Of a stretch of 64,000 nt of DNA, positions 8,552-59,844 are shown piece after piece. Position 1 is the stretch's first letter. Every line of letters begins with the position of its first letter. The notes beneath the pieces were generated by a model. That model was not told the DNA's origin. It did not search any database and worked only from the letters and a program-made list of their open reading frames with translations. The translations under genes and the position numbers were made by a program. Source of the stretch: Bacteroidales bacterium. GTDB lineage: Bacteria > Bacteroidota > Bacteroidia > Bacteroidales > F082. Location: assembly GCA_021647205.1 (NCBI GenBank), contig JAKIVD010000002.1, positions 62,001 through 126,000 on the forward strand. Reading direction: 5' to 3'.

Positions 8552-9580
8552 ATGCTTGCAAAATTAGGTAAAACGTACAATATTCTGCTTCGCCTTACTA
8601 TAGTCGTACTCACTTTTGTTTTTTTATACGACCAGGTTTTCTACCGGAAAGACCTTCAATCCATAGTCGATTATTTACCGCAGGTTTCTTCAGGAAGATA
8701 TTTCTACTTTCTTTTGCTTGTAACGGTATTGCTTATCCCGCTAAATTTGTTGCTTGAAGTTGTAAAATGGAAACTACTGATTAGTAAATTAGAAAATGTC
8801 AGTGTCTGGAATGCCACCAAAGCTGTTCTGACGGGTGTTTCGGTAAGCATGATTTTACCAAACCGCGTGGGGGATTATTTGGGCCGGGTTTTCGTGCTTA
8901 AAAAAGCTGACCGTTTGCAGGCGGTGCTGGCCACCATTCTGGGCAGTATGGCGCAATTGCTGACAACCATTTTATTCGGATTGACTGCCGTCTTGTTTTT
9001 CTTTCCGTTTTATGCTGACCTGAGCGAGCAACTGAATATTTGGTTTTATTCAGGGATTATTGCCGTGGCACTGATTACGGCCGTTACATCGGTATTTGCG
9101 TTTCTGAATTTTTCTTCATTTTCGCTTGTTTTAAGAAGAATCAGTGGCCGGGCTTACCGGAAAATCAGTAAATATACGGAGGTGTTTTCGTGGTACAATC
9201 CTGATTTTTTATTGAAAATATTAGGGATTAGCATTGGCAGATATTTGGTTTTCTCCTTCCAGTTTTGGTTGTTGTTGCAGGCTTTCCAGGTGCCGGTTTC
9301 CTATTTTATGGCCATGGTTCTTGTTAGTCTGGTTTATTTGCTGATGGCTGTTATTCCTACCATCGCCCTTACCGAAATCGGGGTGCGGGGCTCGGTCAGC
9401 CTCTTTGTTTTTGCCTTGTATTTAAGCCCTGCCGGTTTGTGGACCGAGCACATTAAACTGGGCGTAGCAGCAGCTTCTACCATGCTTTGGGTTTTTAACC
9501 TGGCATTTCCGGCTTTGCTGGGTACTTTTTTTGTGTACAGTTTGCGGTTTTTCAGAAAAAACAATGGCCATGGGAACTGA
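8552..9580 (+). CDS. Lysylphosphatidylglycerol synthase-type transmembrane (flippase-like) protein
   Basis: A 342-residue polytopic membrane protein with about eight hydrophobic segments. It resembles the flippase half of MprF and the UPF0104/YbhN family: VSVSMILPNRVGDYLGRVFVL (residues 89-110) is the conserved family motif. The catalytic aminoacyl-transferase half of MprF is absent, so lipid lysinylation is not predicted. In Bacteroidota such proteins often sit beside glycosyltransferases and are thought to move lipid-linked intermediates. Here the GT2 gene downstream overlaps its 3' end, which supports a shared envelope or glycolipid role. Its start overlaps the promoter zone of ruvC. Confidence 0.8.
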   Translation: MLAKLGKTYNILLRLTIVVLTFVFLYDQVFYRKDLQSIVDYLPQVSSGRYFYFLLLVTVLLIPLNLLLEVVKWKLLISKLENVSVWNATKAVLTGVSVSMILPNRVGDYLGRVFVLKKADRLQAVLATILGSMAQLLTTILFGLTAVLFFFPFYADLSEQLNIWFYSGIIAVALITAVTSVFAFLNFSSFSLVLRRISGRAYRKISKYTEVFSWYNPDFLLKILGISIGRYLVFSFQFWLLLQAFQVPVSYFMAMVLVSLVYLLMAVIPTIALTEIGVRGSVSLFVFALYLSPAGLWTEHIKLGVAAASTMLWVFNLAFPALLGTFFVYSLRFFRKNNGHGN

Positions 9581-10703
9581 ATATTTTTTGTGGGCATTGG
9601 TATTTGCAATGCTGCTGTATTTTATGCTGATGCTGGTAATGACCTGGGGATGGTTCCGGTTGAAAATTTTCGATGCGCAGTCCGGTTCAGAAAAAATAAT
9701 ACTTAGCATTGTTGTGGCCGTCAGGAATGAAGAAGAAAATATCGAACAACTTTTACAGGGTTTCAGCCAACAAAACTATCCACCGGATTTATTCGAAATC
9801 ATAATTGTGGACGACCATTCGGAAGACAAAACAACAGAGCTTGTTGACCGCTTTATCCGTGAAAATCAAAAGCATAAAATTACTCAACTACATGCTGCCG
9901 GTGCTGGGAAAAAGGCCGCTTTGGCGGAAGGGATTTCCAAAACAACAGGCGACCTCATTGTAACTACCGATGGCGATTGCCGGATAAATCCGGATTGGTT
10001 AAGGACAATTGCCGCTTATTTTTCAGCCCACAAACCGGCCTTGATTATTGCCCCGGTGGTGTACCAGAACGAAAAGGGTATTTTACAAAGACTGTTTTCT
10101 TTGGATTTTGCTGCGCTCGTGGCTTCGGGTGCCGGATCGGCAGGGGCCGGCATGCCTTTGATGGGCAATGGCGCAAACCTTGCGTTTACTAAAAAATCCT
10201 GGCAGAAGGCCAATTCAGGAAAAAAGGAGGGCTTTGTTTCGGGCGATGATGTTTTTTTGATTCATCGAATTGAAAGATTGTTGGGAAGCAAATCCATTCA
10301 TTTTTTGAAATCGGCTTCGGCCATTGTCCGAACCAATCCACCTACAGATTTACGGGCATTTTTCCAACAGCGCATTCGTTGGGCTTCCAAAGCAAAAGGA
10401 TACAAATCGCCCTGGGCAATCTTTGTTTCGGTGGTGGTGCTTGGGGTTAACCTGTTGCTAGCACTTACTTTTTTTGCCGGTTTTTACAAGGCCTGGTTTT
10501 TTGTCATTTACGGATTGTTTGTCATCCTGAAATTGTTGATTGACCTGCCTTTGGTTCATGGCTTTGCAAGCTTTTCCGGAAAACGGAAACTGTTGGGGTT
10601 TTCTGTTCCCCTGGCACTCATTTACGCTTTATACATTGTGGGTGTTGCTTTCCCTGCCTTGTTTTTCAGGTTTGAATGGAAGGGGAGGAAAGGGTTGAAG
10701 TAA
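9564..10703 (+). CDS. GT2-family membrane-anchored glycosyltransferase
   Basis: GT-A fold glycosyltransferase (about 379 residues). An N-terminal membrane segment precedes LSIVVAVRNEEENI, VDDHSEDKT and the DxD-like TTDGDC. GDDVFLIHRI and QQRIRWASKAKG (the Q/RxxRW-type acceptor motif of processive GT2 enzymes) follow. Three hydrophobic segments close the C-terminus. I chose ATG 9564; ATG 9570 is equally possible. Either overlaps the end of the upstream membrane gene, implying translational coupling. Donor and acceptor are unknown. It converges on ispD with only 6 bp between stops. Confidence 0.85.
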   Translation: MAMGTEYFLWALVFAMLLYFMLMLVMTWGWFRLKIFDAQSGSEKIILSIVVAVRNEEENIEQLLQGFSQQNYPPDLFEIIIVDDHSEDKTTELVDRFIRENQKHKITQLHAAGAGKKAALAEGISKTTGDLIVTTDGDCRINPDWLRTIAAYFSAHKPALIIAPVVYQNEKGILQRLFSLDFAALVASGAGSAGAGMPLMGNGANLAFTKKSWQKANSGKKEGFVSGDDVFLIHRIERLLGSKSIHFLKSASAIVRTNPPTDLRAFFQQRIRWASKAKGYKSPWAIFVSVVVLGVNLLLALTFFAGFYKAWFFVIYGLFVILKLLIDLPLVHGFASFSGKRKLLGFSVPLALIYALYIVGVAFPALFFRFEWKGRKGLK

Positions 10704-10709
10704 GCCTCG

Positions 10710-11384
10710 TCAAAGTAAACCCTCCGAAAGCAAAACCCGTGCATGCACTAAATCTGCCGGATGCGTAATTTTCATATTTTCGGGGTTCCCTTCTACGAGG
10801 TGAATTTGGCTACCGGCGTTTTCCAGCACGGTGGCATCGTCGGTAAAACTTTCGTTGTAAGGCTGCTGGTAAGCCCGTTTAATGTTAGAGGACAGGAAGA
10901 CCTGCGGTGTCTGCACCAGCCTCAGTTTGTTCCGGTCGAATGATTTGCTCAGGCTGCCGCTGATTTCTCTGACCGACCCGCTCAGGGGAACAACGGGAAC
11001 AGCACAGCCCTTACGCGCTGCCAGCGAAAAGCAGTTTTCGATGATTTGCGCCGAAACGAAAGGCCTTACCCCGTCGTGGATGGCAACGAGGGCGTTTTCG
11101 GGAACCGGCCGCAGCCCGCTTTTTACCGAATGAAAGCGTTTGGGGCCGCTTTCAACAAGCTGATGGGGTATGTTAAAAGCATGAATTTTGCATAGTTTTT
11201 TCCAATGGTCAATAAAGTCAGAAGGCAAAACAAGGATAAATTCAAAGGTATTGTCCACCGTAGAAAAAGCATGAAAAGTGTGCATGAGCAAGGGCAGGCC
11301 ACCTAGTTCCAGAAATTGTTTGGGTTGTTCGGTTCCCATGCGTTTTCCCCTGCCACCGGCAAGGATGATGACATACTTTTTCAT
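10710..11384 (-). CDS. ispD: 2-C-methyl-D-erythritol 4-phosphate cytidylyltransferase
   Basis: Third enzyme of the MEP isoprenoid pathway, joining CTP and MEP. The N-terminal nucleotide-binding loop GGRGKRMG, DGVRPFV and TDDATVLENAG are diagnostic. The start at ATG 11384 (MKKYVIILAGG) gives 224 residues, normal for IspD. The frame is open upstream to an ATG at 11456, but those extra residues (SSTEGLTPSGDKED) look non-homologous. A near-consensus -7 box TAACTTTA lies at 11477-11484 and leaves a leader if the inner start is right. The gene is preceded by the queA terminator. Confidence 0.93.
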   Translation of the reverse strand: MKKYVIILAGGRGKRMGTEQPKQFLELGGLPLLMHTFHAFSTVDNTFEFILVLPSDFIDHWKKLCKIHAFNIPHQLVESGPKRFHSVKSGLRPVPENALVAIHDGVRPFVSAQIIENCFSLAARKGCAVPVVPLSGSVREISGSLSKSFDRNKLRLVQTPQVFLSSNIKRAYQQPYNESFTDDATVLENAGSQIHLVEGNPENMKITHPADLVHARVLLSEGLL

Positions 11385-25959: not shown

Positions 25960-28617
25960 CTAATAATAAACAACTTCGGTAGCCGGGTGTTCGGATTTGT
26001 AGGATTCCACTTTTGATGCCTTTAAAGATGTATTGTAGCACCTCAGCTCTTTCAGGTTTGCCATTTTCAGAATAGGTTTCAGGCTTTTGATTTTTGTGTT
26101 GTTGATAAAAAGCTTTTCAAGGTTTTGTAATTCCTGAATCTCTTTCAGGCTTTTTACTTTTGTTCCGGCAATATTCAAGGTCTTCAGTTGTGTCAGCATA
26201 CCCACCAGTTCCAGGTCTTCCACCGCCGTGTTTTCGATGTTCAATTCTTCCAGGTTGGTTAGTTGGTCGAGGGTGGTTAAATCGCTGATGGGGTTGTTGG
26301 GCAGGTTCAGCGCCCGCAAGTTCGGAAGTACAGTAACCGGAGAAATATCGTTGATTAGTGTCTTACTCACATTCAGCTCGGTCATCCGTATAAAAAGATG
26401 CAGCGGATTCAGGTTCTGAATTGATGAGTTGTCGTTAATGCTTACTGTCGGCAAATCAACCAAAGCCTGCAATTGTTCCCGCGAGGGCTGCTCGTCCATT
26501 TTCAGGTGTTCGTGAAAAACCGCCTGCCAGGTATCGTCTAAACTCGCCCACCAGTCTTGCAGCAGCGGGCTTTGGTAAACAACAAGACATTCGGGCAGGG
26601 TTTGTTGCAGCTCAAGCACATTCGGTTGTGCAAGCTGACTGCCATCGCAATAAACAGTTTGCAAGCCGGAATTGTTTTTCAGGGGCAGTAAGTCATTCAC
26701 AGCCGTATTTTCGCAATGCATAGTTTTCAGGTTTGAAAGCGACCGGAGCGGCGACAAATCTTCCACATTCGTGTTGTTCAGGTTTAGTATTCTGAGGTTG
26801 TTCAATCCGCTAATCGGCTCCAAATCGGAAACGGGAATACCCTCAATATTCAGTTCCTCCAACCGGTGCAGCATTTCCAGGGGGCCGAGGGACTGGATTT
26901 CCTGGTGTCCGGAAAGATCAACGGCAGTTATGTTAATAATCTTGTGCATTTGTTCGGTGCTTACCGGATCGCTGATGGTCATCTTCGAGCGGATGATCTT
27001 TTTGTAGTTTTCCGGCATTTCGTTCCACCAATTGCGCAGGTTTTCCGTATTGTAAATGACCAGGCTTTTTTCGTTGTTTTGCATAAACCGCTTGGCTTCC
27101 TCCTCTTTGACGCCGCTGTTGTCGCAGTAAATAATTTTGAGGGAAGGCAGGTTTTCAAGGGGACTGAGATCGGTAATACCAGTGCTGTTGGCCTCAATAG
27201 TTGAAAGCGCTGTCAGGTTTTGTAAAGGCTCCAGATTCTTGAAGGAAGTGCTGTCGATATTCAGGTTTTGCAGATTTATCAGCGAGTCCAGGGGACTGAG
27301 GTCTGTTATTTGCGAATTGGACAGGTCCAGGTTCGTCAGGGCAGTCAGCCCCCTGAGTTCTTGCGGGTTTTCAAGGCTCAGCCCACTTAGCGAAAGTTGC
27401 GAAAGTACGGGCAGGCCGGCAAGCGGAAGAAGGCTTGTTACCGCCGAATTGGATAAATTCAAAGTTTTCAGTTTTTTCAGGTTGCTGAGAACGGAAATAT
27501 CTGAAATGCCGGTATGCGCACAGTTTAAAGTTGTCAGGTTCGACACATAGCGTAAGGCATCAATGGAGACAAGGGCCGAGCCGGAACAATCGAGTTTTTC
27601 CAGTTTGTTCAGGTTCCGCAAAGGGCTCAGGTTTGTTACCCTGGTGTTGGAAAGGTCAATTTCTACCAGGTTTGAAAGTTGGGAAACGCCATCCAGGTTA
27701 TTGATAACAGAGTCCCCGGAAATATCCAGCATTTGCATGGCGCTGATCTGTTTCAGCCGTGCATAAATGGGCGCAACATCAACCGGAACCGTATCGGGAA
27801 CCGTGAAAAAAACGGTATCAACAAGGTGGACAATTTCACCGACGATGGGGCGCGAATTGTCAATTCCATCAAAACTGAGGGTGTCGCCTTCGCTCACGAT
27901 AACAGAATCTACCCGAACCGAATCGGCCTGCCGTTCAACCACCAGCAAGCTGTCGGCGAAATATACAATTTTGTTCAACGAGAGGGTGTCGTAAACTGCT
28001 TCCACCTGCCGGCTGAAAAAGTCCCGCCATTCCACCGGCAGCCCGTTCCACCAAAAGCGGAGTTCCCTTTTCGCATCGGGCTGGGTGGTGTAAATACTCG
28101 CAATTTTCAAATCCTGTCGATAAGGGTCGAGGTTTACTTCGAGGTAGCGAAGCTGGTTGTTGTTTATCGTGTCGTCGCCAACGGTTATCCCTTGCAGGTT
28201 ACGCGAAGCGGTGACTTTAAAATAAACCTGGTTTTTCTCGTTCACAAACTGTTCCACCGAATTTACCTCGAAGGTGAAAGACGCTGTCTTGTAGAAAAAA
28301 TCAATGTCTTTCAGGTAGGCCTGTACATCTTTGCTGATGGGGATTTCCCTGTTTTCGTCGAGGTCGTCTTCAATCTGCACCTCATCACTTTGAAAGATTT
28401 TTAAAAAGCTTTGGTTGATGACGATGTCTTTGTCGGCAGCCACCTCGTTCGGATCGCCCAGGAAGTTCAACGTCCCTTCGAGGTATTTGACCATTTGTTT
28501 GCTTTGTTCCTCATAGGCTTCCACTTCCTCAGCCGTCAACTGTGGCTCTTGCTGCGCCTGAATCTGGAAAGTGAAAAGGAAGAATCCCAACAGCAGTGTT
28601 ATTTTTCTAAGGTGCAT
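25960..28617 (-). CDS. Secreted leucine-rich repeat protein with three WW-capped LRR modules
   Basis: An 885-residue exported protein with signal peptide LLLGFFLFTFQIQA. After a 180-residue N-terminal domain comes a pattern used three times. A short helix containing a Trp pair opens it (WWNGLPVEW at 189, WWNEMPENY at 530, WWASLDDTW at 689). About 22-residue LRRs of the type L-x-x-L-x-x-L-x-L-x-x-T follow. Each module ends in a strand with YCDxS (RCYNTS in the last) and VxY (residues 497-522, 657-681 and the C-terminus). The repeats resemble internalin-like LRRs. No T9SS tail is visible. The upstream 285-residue gene overlaps it by 19 bp, so the two are co-expressed. Ligand unknown. Confidence 0.85.
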   Translation of the reverse strand: MHLRKITLLLGFFLFTFQIQAQQEPQLTAEEVEAYEEQSKQMVKYLEGTLNFLGDPNEVAADKDIVINQSFLKIFQSDEVQIEDDLDENREIPISKDVQAYLKDIDFFYKTASFTFEVNSVEQFVNEKNQVYFKVTASRNLQGITVGDDTINNNQLRYLEVNLDPYRQDLKIASIYTTQPDAKRELRFWWNGLPVEWRDFFSRQVEAVYDTLSLNKIVYFADSLLVVERQADSVRVDSVIVSEGDTLSFDGIDNSRPIVGEIVHLVDTVFFTVPDTVPVDVAPIYARLKQISAMQMLDISGDSVINNLDGVSQLSNLVEIDLSNTRVTNLSPLRNLNKLEKLDCSGSALVSIDALRYVSNLTTLNCAHTGISDISVLSNLKKLKTLNLSNSAVTSLLPLAGLPVLSQLSLSGLSLENPQELRGLTALTNLDLSNSQITDLSPLDSLINLQNLNIDSTSFKNLEPLQNLTALSTIEANSTGITDLSPLENLPSLKIIYCDNSGVKEEEAKRFMQNNEKSLVIYNTENLRNWWNEMPENYKKIIRSKMTISDPVSTEQMHKIINITAVDLSGHQEIQSLGPLEMLHRLEELNIEGIPVSDLEPISGLNNLRILNLNNTNVEDLSPLRSLSNLKTMHCENTAVNDLLPLKNNSGLQTVYCDGSQLAQPNVLELQQTLPECLVVYQSPLLQDWWASLDDTWQAVFHEHLKMDEQPSREQLQALVDLPTVSINDNSSIQNLNPLHLFIRMTELNVSKTLINDISPVTVLPNLRALNLPNNPISDLTTLDQLTNLEELNIENTAVEDLELVGMLTQLKTLNIAGTKVKSLKEIQELQNLEKLFINNTKIKSLKPILKMANLKELRCYNTSLKASKVESYKSEHPATEVVYY

Positions 28618-46708: not shown

Positions 46709-47044
46709 CTCCTGAAAAATTGGGCGGCAAAAGTAAAACTTATTCTTATGATAAACAAATTATTAAAAGCAATAATCAAGTGGTAGGTTCAAGTGGCAAC
46801 GGTTACCTGTAAATATTGGGCTACCGTTAAAACTATTTGAGATACAACGGGTTACGTTTCTAACCTAAAAATATTTCACTTTATTTTGTAAGGAATGCTA
46901 TAATCAAAGGACTAACATCCAACTTGTTTTGCCTGCTTTCGGCAGAAGCAGATGCTTCATCCCAAAACAATAACAAAACCAGGTGATACCTCCACCAGCC
47001 AAAGGGTTTACAAAGGGGGTAATTATTTAAAAAATACAATACAA
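46709..47044. other. Divergent gap before the LVIVD protein
   Basis: 336 bp. Apart from the DUF177 promoter box and a small CTGC/GCAG hairpin near 46933-46945, nothing is recognised; no clear promoter was found for the plus-strand gene. Confidence 0.4.
46728..46735 (-). promoter_or_regulatory. -7 promoter box for DUF177-rpmF-fabH
   Basis: TACTTTTG on the minus strand, 19 nt before ATG 46708. Confidence 0.65.
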
Positions 47045-48622
47045 ATGAAAAGAAAAATACTTTCCACCCTCTTCGCGATATCTTGTTTGATCTCCTTCGG
47101 GCAACTGAACATGACCCAGTTGGGCCAACTGGCTTATAGTAAAAATTTAAATGATATATGGGGTTATGTTGACACTGCCGGAAACGAATATGCGCTGGTT
47201 GGTGTTTTCGACGGCCTGTCGGTTGTTGACGTATCAGATCCCGCCTCGCCCGTCGAGGTTCATTTTGAGCAAGGTGTTAATTCTTCATGGAGAGACATCA
47301 AAACCTGGGGCAGGTATGCTTACGTTTCCACTGAAGGGGGCGGCGGAATTGTGATAATTGACCTGAGCCCTTTGCCGGGTACTATCACCAGCTCAACTTC
47401 TTTTACGGGCTCAGGCTATTCGTTTAGCTCTGTACACAATCTGTACATTGATGAATCAGGGAAGCTGTATATTTTTGGTGCCGATAACGGTGCGGGCGGG
47501 GCCATCATTTGCGACCTGACTGCCGACCCGATGAACCCCGTGGAACTGGGAAGGTATGATTTAAATTATTTTCACGACGGGATGGCGCGGGGTGATACCC
47601 TTTGGGGTGCCGCACTTTACCAGGGAAAACTTTATGCCGTGGATGTGAGTGATCCGGCAAACCCGGCCGTACTGGGAACCGTGTCCACACCCGACCAGTT
47701 TACCCACAATGCCTGGGTTTCCGGTGACGGAGAGACCGTTTTCACGACGGATGAAGAAAGCGGGGCTTTTGTGACGGCTTTCGATGTTACCGACATGCAG
47801 AACATTTTTGAAACCGACCGCGTCCAGTCCAATCCGGGTTCGGGTGTTATTCCGCACAATGTACATGTAAACAACAACTTTCTTGTAAGTTCTTATTATG
47901 CTGACGGTGTGCTGATCCACGATGCGGCACGGCCGGGAAACCTGATAGAAGTCGGGAATTTTGATACTTCCCCTTCGCATTCAGGTGATGGCTACGACGG
48001 TTGCTGGGGTGCTTACCCTTTTCTGCCGTCAGGAAATATTTTGGCTTCCGACATGGAAGAAGGCTTGTATATTCTGGAACCTGACTACCAAAGGGCTTGT
48101 TATCTCGAAGGACTTGTTACGGACAGCATCACCGGCCTGAAATTAAAAAATGTCAATATCCGTATCCTTTCTGCCGAAATTTCCACAACAACTGCAATGG
48201 ATGGAACCTACGCCTTTGGGACAGTGGATTCGGGGATGTACGATATTGAGTTTTCCCATCAGGATTATGCCACGGATACCGTCAGGGATGTAGAACTGGG
48301 TAACGGTCAGCTGACAACACTCGACCACATCATGTCGAGTTGGTTTACAGCTATTCAGGACCAAATTAGTCCGGACCAGCCGAGCGCCTATCCCAATCCT
48401 TTTAAGACAGGACTTACCGTTGATTACTACCTGAGCGGACCGGTGTCCGGGGGTGCATCCCTTGGGGTTTTTGATGCGACAGGCCGGCTTATTGAAGAAT
48501 TTCCTCTCCGGTCGGCATCGGGCTCGGTACAAATCGGGAAGAACTATCCAAAAGGTTTTTACCTGATTAAAATAGGGAATGGTTCGGGAATGATAAAGAC
48601 ACTGAAAGTGAACAAGCAATAA
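47045..48622 (+). CDS. LVIVD-repeat (choice-of-anchor B) protein with T9SS sorting tail
   Basis: A 525-residue secreted protein. Signal peptide MKRKILSTLFAISCLISFGQ. The central part contains repeated blades with (V/A)VDVSDP(A)(S/N)P motifs (VVDVSDPASPVEV, AVDVSDPANPAVL), typical of LVIVD beta-propellers. A carboxypeptidase-regulatory-like domain follows (LEGLVTDSITGLKLKNVNIRI). The end, YPNPFKTGLTVDYYL...GRLIEEFPL...GFYLIKIGNG, is a type A T9SS tail, so the protein is exported across the outer membrane and probably anchored or released. I start at ATG 47045; a longer frame from 46952 lacks a signal sequence. Confidence 0.85.
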   Translation: MKRKILSTLFAISCLISFGQLNMTQLGQLAYSKNLNDIWGYVDTAGNEYALVGVFDGLSVVDVSDPASPVEVHFEQGVNSSWRDIKTWGRYAYVSTEGGGGIVIIDLSPLPGTITSSTSFTGSGYSFSSVHNLYIDESGKLYIFGADNGAGGAIICDLTADPMNPVELGRYDLNYFHDGMARGDTLWGAALYQGKLYAVDVSDPANPAVLGTVSTPDQFTHNAWVSGDGETVFTTDEESGAFVTAFDVTDMQNIFETDRVQSNPGSGVIPHNVHVNNNFLVSSYYADGVLIHDAARPGNLIEVGNFDTSPSHSGDGYDGCWGAYPFLPSGNILASDMEEGLYILEPDYQRACYLEGLVTDSITGLKLKNVNIRILSAEISTTTAMDGTYAFGTVDSGMYDIEFSHQDYATDTVRDVELGNGQLTTLDHIMSSWFTAIQDQISPDQPSAYPNPFKTGLTVDYYLSGPVSGGASLGVFDATGRLIEEFPLRSASGSVQIGKNYPKGFYLIKIGNGSGMIKTLKVNKQ

Positions 48623-55093: not shown

Positions 55094-56560
55094 ATGGTTC
55101 ATCACAATATGAAAATGGCACACAAAAATAAAATATCATCGCTCATTAACATTGGTATCCTTCTGCTATTTGTTTTTCAATGTTACCCTTCTCAAGCACA
55201 AACAATTTTTAAGGTACCCAAATATCCTTATGAAACATGCATAGCTGATTACGATCAGGATGGAGATAATGATATAATTGTTGGTTGTAACTTTAGCTTT
55301 GAAGATGATAGTATTGTTTTATTTGTAAATGATGGTTGGGGAAATTTTGAGAAGCTACAATTTGCCGCAAATGGTGCAGGTTTTATTTATTGTGAGGATT
55401 TGGACAATGATGGGTATCCCGATATTATTACTCGGGATGCTGATAGTATCTTTTTTTATAAAAATGACCAAAACAATGGAATTGCCGATGCCTACTTCAT
55501 TCGGGATGCAGAAGGTAATCCCTTTATTGGAGGTATTGCCGATATCGATTTAGATAGTTATTCAGATATTATCTACTACAATAAAACAAATCCATTTGGA
55601 TGGGGTGTTCTTTTCAATAACGGTGATTGTAGTTTTACTGATTCGTCATTTGTTGAAAGTAGCGATTCTTGGCTGAGACCAAGCATTGGTCAGTTAAATA
55701 ATGATAACCAGCCAGACATTCTGGTAACAACACTTGTTCAAACAGATAGTGTTCATGTCCTGTATAATAATTATCCTGACTTTTTAAGAAATAATCTCGC
55801 CACCGCTGATTGGGCGGAAGGATATACAACTAAAACAAATAATGATAGTCTAAACGATATAACACTTTATCGGCCACTTTACATTGGCCCAACTTGGATA
55901 ACTAGCCTCATCAACAAGGGAGATCATTTCCATACTTGCGATACCTTGGAATTTGTTAACGGCACTAGCATCAAAACTGTAAATGACTTTAACCGTGACG
56001 GGTATGATGACTTTGCAATGCTTATTTATCAGGCAAACAATCTTCCTGTTGAGGATTCGGTTTATATCTATTTTAATGATGGGTATTGCGGTCTTACACA
56101 TGAACAAAGCATTTATGTAGGAGATTATTTCTGGCTTGCCACAATTAGTAGTGGTGATTTAAATGGAAACGGCTATCCCGATTTAGTTGTAAGGGGATTC
56201 AGCATGCCAACACCTGATTATATCAGGATATTGTGGAATGATGGTACAGGTCATTTCATTGATACCAATTCGGTTTATGTTTTTCAAAATGAAAAACACT
56301 TTTCAAATGAAATTCATATTTACCCCAATCCTTCACCAGGAAGTATTTCAATCAATCCCGGTGCAGAAAAGATTACAGCATTGAGAATTGTGGATTTAAA
56401 AGGGAGTACATTGGTCCGATGGGAATTTTCTTCTTCTCAAAACAAAATTACCCTTGATTTAAGGATACCAGGCATTAAACCTGGTATTTACATCTGCATT
56501 ATTGAATTGGAAAATGAAGATTTAGTTTTTAAAAAATTAATTATTAATAAACCAAATTAG
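55094..56560 (+). CDS. FG-GAP/VCBS repeat protein with T9SS sorting tail
   Basis: A 488-residue secreted protein with signal peptide ISSLINIGILLLFVFQCYPSQA (start may be any of three nearby ATGs). Repeats with Ca-binding DxDxDG-type loops run through it: ADYDQDGDNDIIVG, EDLDNDGYPDIIT, ADIDLDSYSDIIYY, NDFNRDGYDDFAM, GDLNGNGYPDLVV. This is an integrin-like beta-propeller. The end (YPNPSPGSISI...IVDLKGSTLV...GIYICIIELENEDLVFKKLIINKP) is a T9SS type A tail. DNA is A+T-richer than in neighbours. It is 2 bp upstream of the next gene, so the two form an operon. Confidence 0.85.
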   Translation: MVHHNMKMAHKNKISSLINIGILLLFVFQCYPSQAQTIFKVPKYPYETCIADYDQDGDNDIIVGCNFSFEDDSIVLFVNDGWGNFEKLQFAANGAGFIYCEDLDNDGYPDIITRDADSIFFYKNDQNNGIADAYFIRDAEGNPFIGGIADIDLDSYSDIIYYNKTNPFGWGVLFNNGDCSFTDSSFVESSDSWLRPSIGQLNNDNQPDILVTTLVQTDSVHVLYNNYPDFLRNNLATADWAEGYTTKTNNDSLNDITLYRPLYIGPTWITSLINKGDHFHTCDTLEFVNGTSIKTVNDFNRDGYDDFAMLIYQANNLPVEDSVYIYFNDGYCGLTHEQSIYVGDYFWLATISSGDLNGNGYPDLVVRGFSMPTPDYIRILWNDGTGHFIDTNSVYVFQNEKHFSNEIHIYPNPSPGSISINPGAEKITALRIVDLKGSTLVRWEFSSSQNKITLDLRIPGIKPGIYICIIELENEDLVFKKLIINKPN

Positions 56561-56562
56561 CC

Positions 56563-59500
56563 ATGAAAAAGATAATTTACTTCCCCATTCTTCTTATTGT
56601 ACTTACAGTGGTGCAATTAAGTGTAGCTGCTCAAGTTTCAAAGCAGGATGCTATAGATCTCGTAATGGATTCAATAGCAGCAGACCGTATTGACAGTGTC
56701 AATATTTATATGGATACTGTCGTTTTATCAAATGACTATTATGTTATTAGCCCTTATGATTCAATTGATTCGCCTTATTCTAATTACTGGTTATTTTTTA
56801 TTGATGAGCACCCATTTTACATGTGGGGGCATTTAGGCACCTACGTGTTTATCGATCAATCAAATGGCGATTTCACAACAGTTAATTACAATTTACCTCC
56901 TTTATATTTTCAATTTAAGATGGAAGGCATAAATACACCGTTAATGCTTCCTACAACAACTCCGGATTTTATGTCCCCCTACAATGTAACTGCTACACAA
57001 GAGAATTTGCATTATTACGCAGTAATCTTCAGTGGATTTGGGGGTAACACAGAATCCGCATTTTGGAACCATTTAAGCCATATGTATTGTGCACTAAAAG
57101 AAAAAGGCTTTTCGGACGAAAATATTTATGTTTTGTCCGGTGATGGTACTGCCGGCTCTGACTACTGGCAAAATCCAAGTTTAGATCTTGACAATGATTT
57201 AGATGATGACATCATGAGTGTACCATGCTCGGTTGCTGAATTGAATAATGTTTTTCAGCAACTCGAAACTTCATTAACAGAAGATGATTTATTGTTCATT
57301 TTTGCAACAACACATGGTGACCAAGGAACAATTGAAGATGATAGTTACCTTATTTTATACCAATATGAAAAGTTATGGGATAATATTTTGGCTGAAATGA
57401 TTGAAAATATTAACTGCTCACAAATTATAATACCAATCTATGCTTGCAATTCGGGAGGATTTGTTGATGATTTAATGGTTCAGACCAATAAAGCGAAAAG
57501 AACAGTTTTCACAACTGTTGGATGGGCAAATGGATATGCAAGAAATATTCCATTTCTTAATACATATGGGATGGATGTATTTCCATATTTCCTGATCACG
57601 GCATTCAGAGGGTATCATCCTTTATCAAAATACGTCCCTTGGTCTCAAGGCTATATAATTGGAGAACATCCTGGCAATAATGATTTTCCTCCATTAGTAG
57701 AAAACTCCGATTTTGATCCGGATATTACTCTGAGCCAGGGAAACGGGGATGGTGTTATTCAAATAGGCGAAGTTATTTATTATACAAAAGAGTTTGATGG
57801 TGGATTTAATAATTTTGGAGTGATAGCATATGATTGCGGGTTTAACGAGGATTTACTTAGCCTGACGGGCATATCAGGAAATGTAGAAACCACCCAAACT
57901 CTTGAGGGCAGCTTTATCATCGGCGGCAACCTCAATATCAAAACTGGCAAAACATTAACCGTTGATAACGAAAGCAGCTTGTTTTTGGTGAATGGCAGTA
58001 TCAGTACTGAAAGCGGTTCAACATTAAATCTGCAAAGTGTAACGCAGGGTGGTGAAACCACGGCAGTACTGGTGCACAATTTTTCCGGTGGTGGCAACAT
58101 GTCAGTAGTGGGGAACTTATTAACCGGCCCAAAAGTGAAATTCTCTTCTGAAAACGGAACTTCACTTAACATGAGTGTTTTATCAAATGTTACTTTTAGC
58201 GATTGTGTATTTGATCGTGTTACACTGAGTGGCGGCACGAATACATTAACCATTAATCAGTCATCAGTCTTTACTAATTCATTGATACAGGGTTCAGGGC
58301 ACTATATCATAGATAATTCCACATTCATTTCGTCTTCAGTAAACCTTTATCCTGCTGGGCCTTTGGGTTGCTCTGCTAACATTACTAATAGTAGTTTTAC
58401 AAAACCCCATCCTGATATTGATAAAATAGTAAGCCTGTTTTGGGTAGATGTTTTCGATATTACAGGTAATACTTTTTCAAACTATACCGATCAATACAAT
58501 AAAGATGAATCTAGCTTATTTCTTGAGTTTTGCGGTGACTACGGCACCAGTAATAATCATGACATTACAGGTAATACATTCAACGTAAGCGACAACCAAA
58601 CCTATAGTAATACGAATGGAATTACCTTATACTCCAGTGTAGCAAATATCCAGAACAATAATATCCAAAATCAAAGAACCGGTATCGTTTTACACGGGAA
58701 CAGTCAGACAGAAATCTATGGCAACCAAAATGCAATCCAGGAAAGCCAAACGCAAATTATCAAAAACAATACCCTTTACCAGGTTTATGCTTCGGAATAT
58801 GCTTTCCCAAACTATTTTAAATATAACGCAGTATATGAAGACACATATTCCAACACTTACATCCTGCACCTTGTTGATATGCAAAGCAATCCTGACAATG
58901 TATATGTAAAGTGTAATAACTGGGGCCTTGACACTTATCCTGCTGACAACCTCTATCCAACTAACCATTACCTTTGGGATCCTATCTGGACCTTTAGTGA
59001 TTGTAACACTGGTCAAACAGCAGCGGCAGCATTGTATGAAACCGGAACAGAACAAGTAGCTGACAGCAACTACAATGCTGCTCAAACAACATTTGAGCAG
59101 GTAGTTACTGATTACCCGGAATCGGAAGAAGCCACCAATGCCATGAAAGATTTGTACCTGACAGAACCCCTGATTGACAGCACAGATTTTGCTGAAAGAC
59201 AGAATTGGTACTTGACAGAACCAGCCATTTTTGGGAATGACCGGCTGAAAAAAATAGGTGAAAACCTGGCCAACAAATGTGATGAGCAGCTTGAAAACTA
59301 TCCTGACGCCATTGACTGGTACGAAGACGTGATTGATGACCCGCCAACATTACAAGACTCGGTTTTTGCCATTATTGACCTTGAAAATGTTTACCTGCAA
59401 ATGGGTATTGACACAACTCTTCGCATTGCATACATTGGCAGAATGCCACAATACAAACCTGAATCCATTAAAGCACACCAGCAACACAGGGACGAATTGT

Positions 59501-59844
59501 TATCCTTGCTGTTAGGTAATGTAAATAAAAAAATTACAGAAGAAAAATTACCGAATGACGGTAATCTCACAAAACCCGGAGAATTATTACAAAATGTTCC
59601 CAACCCATTTTCATCTAAAACTTCAATTCATTTCAGGGTAAACACAGAAAATGTTAGTACTGTTGAATTAAAGATTTTTAGTCCGCTTGGGAAAGAAATC
59701 AAGCAATATGCTGTCCAAGCTGATGAAATTGATTTAGGAATAGTTGAGATAAATATGGATAATACACCTCAGGGCATTTATTATTATTCCCTTTTTATTA
59801 ATGGCGCTTTGGTAAGTACCAGAAAAATGATGTTGATTAAATAG
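56563..59844 (+). CDS. Clan CD (C13 legumain-like) peptidase - beta-helix - TPR-like - T9SS tail protein
   Basis: A 1093-residue secreted protein with signal peptide MKKIIYFPILLIVLTVVQLSVAA. Residues about 150-350 resemble clan CD cysteine peptidases of the legumain type: FIFATTHGDQG gives catalytic His251 and IPIYACNSGGFVDD gives Cys295. Residues about 445-780 are a right-handed beta-helix (many N-rich repeats such as ITGNTFSN, ITNSSFT). The segment YNAAQTTFEQVVTDYPESEEATNAM (near 870) is TPR-like. The end, VPNPFSSKTSIHF...GIYYYSLFING, is a T9SS tail. It parallels gingipains, which also combine a clan CD peptidase with T9SS export. Substrate and activation are unknown. It sits 2 bp after the FG-GAP gene in A+T-rich DNA. 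Confidence 0.8.
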   Translation: MKKIIYFPILLIVLTVVQLSVAAQVSKQDAIDLVMDSIAADRIDSVNIYMDTVVLSNDYYVISPYDSIDSPYSNYWLFFIDEHPFYMWGHLGTYVFIDQSNGDFTTVNYNLPPLYFQFKMEGINTPLMLPTTTPDFMSPYNVTATQENLHYYAVIFSGFGGNTESAFWNHLSHMYCALKEKGFSDENIYVLSGDGTAGSDYWQNPSLDLDNDLDDDIMSVPCSVAELNNVFQQLETSLTEDDLLFIFATTHGDQGTIEDDSYLILYQYEKLWDNILAEMIENINCSQIIIPIYACNSGGFVDDLMVQTNKAKRTVFTTVGWANGYARNIPFLNTYGMDVFPYFLITAFRGYHPLSKYVPWSQGYIIGEHPGNNDFPPLVENSDFDPDITLSQGNGDGVIQIGEVIYYTKEFDGGFNNFGVIAYDCGFNEDLLSLTGISGNVETTQTLEGSFIIGGNLNIKTGKTLTVDNESSLFLVNGSISTESGSTLNLQSVTQGGETTAVLVHNFSGGGNMSVVGNLLTGPKVKFSSENGTSLNMSVLSNVTFSDCVFDRVTLSGGTNTLTINQSSVFTNSLIQGSGHYIIDNSTFISSSVNLYPAGPLGCSANITNSSFTKPHPDIDKIVSLFWVDVFDITGNTFSNYTDQYNKDESSLFLEFCGDYGTSNNHDITGNTFNVSDNQTYSNTNGITLYSSVANIQNNNIQNQRTGIVLHGNSQTEIYGNQNAIQESQTQIIKNNTLYQVYASEYAFPNYFKYNAVYEDTYSNTYILHLVDMQSNPDNVYVKCNNWGLDTYPADNLYPTNHYLWDPIWTFSDCNTGQTAAAALYETGTEQVADSNYNAAQTTFEQVVTDYPESEEATNAMKDLYLTEPLIDSTDFAERQNWYLTEPAIFGNDRLKKIGENLANKCDEQLENYPDAIDWYEDVIDDPPTLQDSVFAIIDLENVYLQMGIDTTLRIAYIGRMPQYKPESIKAHQQHRDELLSLLLGNVNKKITEEKLPNDGNLTKPGELLQNVPNPFSSKTSIHFRVNTENVSTVELKIFSPLGKEIKQYAVQADEIDLGIVEINMDNTPQGIYYYSLFINGALVSTRKMMLIK

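Follow-up and report, generated by a model that had tools for sequence, protein, structure and literature searches.

A predicted cysteine protease of family C13 that carries a type IX secretion system (T9SS) sorting tail and the beta-propeller protein encoded directly upstream of it form a conserved, co-evolving two-gene module. This pairing was the main surprise of the analysis, and in the genome studied here the pair is an AT-rich insertion. Cysteine proteases exported by the T9SS are known mainly through the gingipains, PorU is a clan CD enzyme that serves the T9SS as its sortase, and most of what is known of family C13 concerns eukaryotes, namely their lysosomes, vacuoles and GPI machinery. 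We describe the protease as a member of C13 whose architecture is new and which belongs to a conserved module, and we favor, with slightly better than even confidence, a horizontally acquired surface system in which a T9SS-exported propeller operates together with a stalked C13 endopeptidase. Positions given below are those of the window, i.e., the whole 64,000-nucleotide stretch of Bacteroidales DNA that was analyzed.

The protease gene is an intact open reading frame of 1093 aa (56563-59844, + strand), with only 2 bp between the end of the FG-GAP propeller gene (56560) and its ATG. Both genes comprise the following features.

55094-56560 (+): FG-GAP beta-propeller partner, 488 aa, bearing a signal peptide and a type A T9SS tail (Pfam)
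56563-59844 (+): predicted cysteine protease of the C13 type (1093 aa) and substrate of the T9SS (sequence, profiles, model)
56563-56631 (+): putative signal peptide, aa 1-23 (MKKIIYFPILLIVLTVVQLSVAA), with the typical look of a Sec signal when read by eye
56632-56961 (+): N-terminal orphan domain with an alpha+beta fold, aa 24-133; candidate prodomain (model, motif)
57004-57870 (+): C13 peptidase domain, caspase-haemoglobinase fold, aa 148-436 (profile, predicted fold)
57313-57315 (+): codon of catalytic His251, in the motif ATTHGDQG
57445-57447 (+): codon of catalytic Cys295, in the motif IYACNSGG
57859-58998 (+): right-handed beta-helix, about aa 433-812 (structural matches)
59020-59508 (+): all-helical TPR-like segment, about aa 820-982 (model secondary structure; profiles below cut-off)
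59599-59832 (+): T9SS type A sorting domain (TIGR04183 and Pfam)

The same order of protease parts was seen in other genomes at 30-50% identity, which argues against a chance architecture, and an assembly chimera was ruled out as the architecture was found again in independent genomes. The partner gene matched Pfam FG-GAP_3 (1.2e-19) and Por_Secre_tail (39.0 bits). Using partner profiles with the T9SS tails trimmed, which separate FG-GAP from BNR propellers, a T9SS-type propeller gene was found immediately 5' of the protease gene and on the same strand in 22 loci, 15 of the FG-GAP type and 7 of the BNR/Asp-box type, the latter bearing Asp-box motifs as in sialidases. A first, higher count of FG-GAP neighbors was discarded because short-form loci had matched through the shared T9SS tail alone; with trimmed profiles, these neighbors were BNR/Asp-box propellers. 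A propeller neighbor was undetected for L044, L046, L083, L084 and L090-L092. The suggestion in the preliminary description that the FG-GAP gene may be a partner consequently gained strength, as an FG-GAP propeller lies directly 5' in 15 loci and not at this locus alone. Only five FG-GAP_3 reading frames occur in the 3.5 Mb genome, making chance adjacency very unlikely.

On the protease tree, one switch is enough to account for the split between FG-GAP and BNR partners, with FG-GAP partners accompanying protease forms that have the N-terminal domain and BNR partners those that do not. Propeller and protease distances were strongly correlated within both the FG-GAP group (Mantel r=0.90, 12 pairs, p=5e-5) and the BNR group (r=0.83, 7 pairs, p=4e-4), a signal that could arise from physical contact or from co-inheritance as a gene block. 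In genome G034, each of two paralogous pairs (L029 and L031) resembles a different outside pair for both genes, indicating that propeller and protease duplicate together. Tandem propeller-protease pairs were also present at L088, where the contig end truncates the outer propeller, an arrangement that fits duplication as one block. Just 5' of the intact pair at L034, positions 9270-11216 hold what appears to be a decayed duplicate, consisting of a truncated C13 fragment and a BNR propeller of its own.

Every feature tested agreed with membership of the broad family C13. Peptidase_C13 was the sole Pfam family above its cut-off in the scan of the whole protein (34.7 bits, cut-off 22.8), the score was 40.8 bits when the peptidase domain was scanned alone, and 13 of 15 relatives matched individually. 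The Pfam matches of the protease, taken up to E=1, included no C25 family, and there was no C14 match to the protease or its relatives among the Pfam matches; an NCBIfam caspase model was weakly matched by six relatives. The top PDB sequence match of the protease was a plant peptide asparaginyl ligase, followed by asparaginyl endopeptidases, and a 15-sequence family profile matched the PDB at 4e-12; legumains, GPI transamidase and metacaspase-4 came next. Models were generated for the full chain (16-sequence input, pLDDT 72.5) and for aa 1-438 (29-sequence input, pLDDT 81.8), and in both the strands and helices succeed each other as in the caspase-haemoglobinase fold. His251 follows strand 243-249 and Cys295 follows strand 287-293, so that the His-Gly and Cys-x-Ser-Gly motifs sit at strand ends. 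Human and plant legumains were the top structural matches (Foldseek 2.6e-8; for aa 148-438, Z 19.6 over 218 residues, rmsd 2.8). The proposed C13-like identity, caspase-haemoglobinase core at residues 150-350 and His251-Cys295 dyad were accordingly all recovered: C13 alone was matched of the C13, C14 and C25 Pfam families, the core is present in the predicted fold with legumains ranking first, and both residues lie in their expected motifs.

The peptidase domain leads directly into the beta-helix, which starts at about aa 433, and the C-terminal activation peptide and LSAM domain of legumain are absent. This helix (aa 433-812) matched the beta-helices of tailspikes and of the AlgG epimerase with Z up to 27.3, and is followed in the full-chain model by an all-helical segment (aa 820-982) and an all-beta tail. 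Profile matches of the helical segment stayed below their cut-offs for both YfiO (19.3 bits, cut-off 25) and YbgF (26.9 bits). The tail (G000:C2:121599-121832, window 59599-59832) scored 28.9 bits against TIGR04183 (cut-off 23) and, when scanned alone, 27.2 bits against Pfam, barely above the cut-off of 27; the whole-protein Pfam scan missed it. The long beta-helix and T9SS tail of the preliminary description are thereby upheld, the former as a right-handed helix with Z of 27 to solved structures and the latter above the curated TIGR04183 cut-off as well as that of Pfam when scanned alone, while the TPR-like segment holds as to its all-helical model and falls short as to its profiles. Three other proteins (L045:451-3921, L047:3636-6662 and L048:4994-8317) join the beta-helix, the helical segment and the T9SS tail to different N-terminal parts, with no detectable C13 domain, as though the stalk served as a common scaffold for display.

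At least 150 T9SS tails and PorU-type sortases (1318 bits) were detected in this genome, so a working T9SS is very probable. Two full-length PorU-type sortase genes lie in tandem on contig C3 (G000 C3:29261-36449, L098), with a third, shorter gene on contig C10. Elsewhere in the window, positions 46952-48622 encode a T9SS-tailed protein of the choice-of-anchor B family (208.6 bits), and positions 25960-28617 (- strand) an 885-aa leucine-rich-repeat protein that resembles internalin models, at scores well under their cut-offs.

Conservation of the active site was assessed in an alignment of 29 sequences, in 27 of which both catalytic sites were readable. The His251 position holds His in 24/29 and the Cys295 position Cys in 24 of the 27 sequences covering it. 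The dyad is complete in 22/27, both residues are gone in 3/27 and His alone in 2/27, and non-catalytic roles may therefore exist within the family. L042, L046 and L085 (also L041 and L086) lack the catalytic pair or His alone and are candidate pseudoproteases, some of them possibly decaying genes; L042 adjoins an IS66 transposase. These losses bear on a rather unlikely alternative, namely that the system is mainly an adhesin or glycan-binding device, in which the propeller and beta-helix do the binding and the C13 domain is a structural relic or performs a single self-processing step. Such a role would suit the relatives of the beta-helix (tailspikes, polysaccharide lyases and epimerases) and the profile matches of the FG-GAP partner, which include integrin alpha propellers and PVL-type (fungal) lectins. 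However, 22/27 relatives retain the dyad, although most of them share <40% identity with the window protein, and selection on catalysis is hard to dispense with as an explanation.

The S1 pocket of legumain is formed by Arg44 and His45 (PMC4357240), which align with Ala166 and Phe167 of the window protein. As the asparagine pocket is altered in this way, cleavage after asparagine is not to be assumed. The first S1 position is Arg in 12 and Glu in 7 of the 29 relatives; family-wide loss of the S1 Arg was considered and proved wrong, and, judging from these residues, cleavage preference may vary between branches of the family. An EF-hand-like loop (DxNxDGxxxxxE) after the catalytic domain is canonical in most relatives, whereas that of the window protein is degenerate. 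Calcium may thus exert control in the family, which is doubtful for this member.

Compared to known C13 enzymes, the protein shares with legumain (asparaginyl endopeptidase, MEROPS C13) the catalytic fold, the His-Cys dyad and profile membership, but differs in its S1 residues, in having a beta-helix instead of an LSAM-like domain, in placing its candidate prodomain N-terminally, and in its T9SS tail and propeller partner. We make no claim to legumain proper since the S1 pair and C-terminal LSAM domain are absent; the earlier label "legumain-like" is apt for fold and C13 membership, and not in the Asn-specific sense. The catalytic subunit of GPI transamidase (PIG-K/GPI8, C13) has the same fold (Z 19.2) and is likewise part of a multi-protein assembly, but belongs to a eukaryotic ER membrane complex and has neither beta-helix nor T9SS tail. 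Plant metacaspases (C14B) show profile and fold similarity, and the EF-hand-like loop of many relatives could bind calcium; in contrast to metacaspases, the window protein has no C14 profile match, a T9SS architecture and a degenerate loop. With VdiPAL1, butelase-type ligases and GPI transamidase among the best profile and structure matches, and with PorU as a clan CD sortase already in the T9SS, the C13 domain might instead be a transpeptidase or ligase that links surface proteins with one another or with glycan. We regard this as unlikely: ligase and protease are indistinguishable at such identity, and the propeller pairing and free-standing stalk suit a secreted effector at least equally well.

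The N-terminal domain (aa 24-133) was modeled as a confident alpha+beta fold, for which profile searches returned no Pfam or PDB relative. Fold searches covering this domain had their matches filled by the peptidase domain, and a PepSY or protease-inhibitor identity, guessed from secondary structure, was unsupported in profile searches. Among 61 related genomes, the domain was found at C13 loci only. A W-x-H-x-C-x-Y motif is conserved in the domain of long forms, with C replaced by G in the window protein. FG-GAP-paired forms have at least 100 residues ahead of the C13 domain, which in BNR-paired forms begins at aa 14-27. Gingipains of Porphyromonas gingivalis, clan CD proteases also exported by the T9SS, fold as zymogens that an N-terminal prodomain keeps inactive (PMC10202324). 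By analogy, aa 24-133 may act as a prodomain, a role that would not be universal in the family because the BNR-paired branch lacks the domain. Gingipains differ in belonging to family C25, to which the window protein has no Pfam match, and in having no such beta-helix or propeller partner. PorU, a C25-type sortase present in the genome, likewise belongs to clan CD and serves this export system, but it is part of the export machinery, whereas the pair described here is a patchily distributed effector. The open-access literature yielded no account of C13 proteins exported by the T9SS or of their pairing with propellers, and none for T9SS with legumain, bacterial legumain, or C13 in Bacteroidetes. 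The preliminary description had anticipated a new surface protease class; a new architecture inside C13 is upheld, and the class claim is too strong for a predicted protease.

Base composition sets the pair apart from its surroundings (GC 0.35-0.39 and GC3 0.27-0.37, compared to about 0.45 and mostly about 0.5 for neighboring genes). In G034, the flanking genes (mannose-1-phosphate guanylyltransferase and SprT-like) are adjacent with the pair missing between them, and a 50%-identical pair is located on a different contig. No copy of the pair was found in the two sampled congeners, whose genomes are incomplete. Counting the window's own genome, strong members (at least 60 bits) occurred in 18/295 genomes at the order level, and members at 1e-15 in 10/395 at the phylum level, a patchy spread as expected of a mobile accessory trait. 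Weak order-level matches at 1e-6 (83/295 genomes) were not counted as members, many being <50 bits; some, at about 1,080-1,140 aa, have sizes that hint at other clan CD proteins such as PorU. Searches for defense-system and plasmid links of the pair gave no matches, and a promoter scan gave nothing beyond chance level.

In the favored surface system, both proteins would cross the inner membrane through Sec and the outer membrane through the T9SS, after which PorU would cut off their tails and anchor them at the cell surface. The N-terminal domain may suppress protease activity up to the point of export from the cell. The propeller would dock with the protease and either bind the target or direct or activate the enzyme, the beta-helix stalk may provide reach or glycan binding, and the His251-Cys295 dyad would cleave proteins or glycoproteins, probably preferring a residue other than asparagine at P1. 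That the propeller is instead a dedicated substrate or inhibitor of the protease draws on the same adjacency and co-evolution data, but we consider it very unlikely; two unrelated propeller folds alongside related proteases are not readily explained in this way. A more specific and tentative proposal is an exported two-part system in which the separate propeller recognizes the target and the stalked C13 enzyme cuts or joins it, one propeller family having been swapped a single time for another, unrelated one as the protease gained or lost its N-terminal domain. This single exchange would make targeting or activation modular.

If displayed on the surface of Bacteroidota, such a mobile, conserved C13-propeller pair would provide T9SS proteolysis with a second clan CD solution. 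It would also offer a bacterial setting for the evolution of C13 specificity, with Arg, Glu or Ala at the S1 position by branch, and of zymogen control through presence or absence of the N-terminal domain, and is a candidate from which new site-specific proteases or ligases might be drawn. Overall, the pair points to a predicted, as yet undescribed type of two-protein surface protease system.
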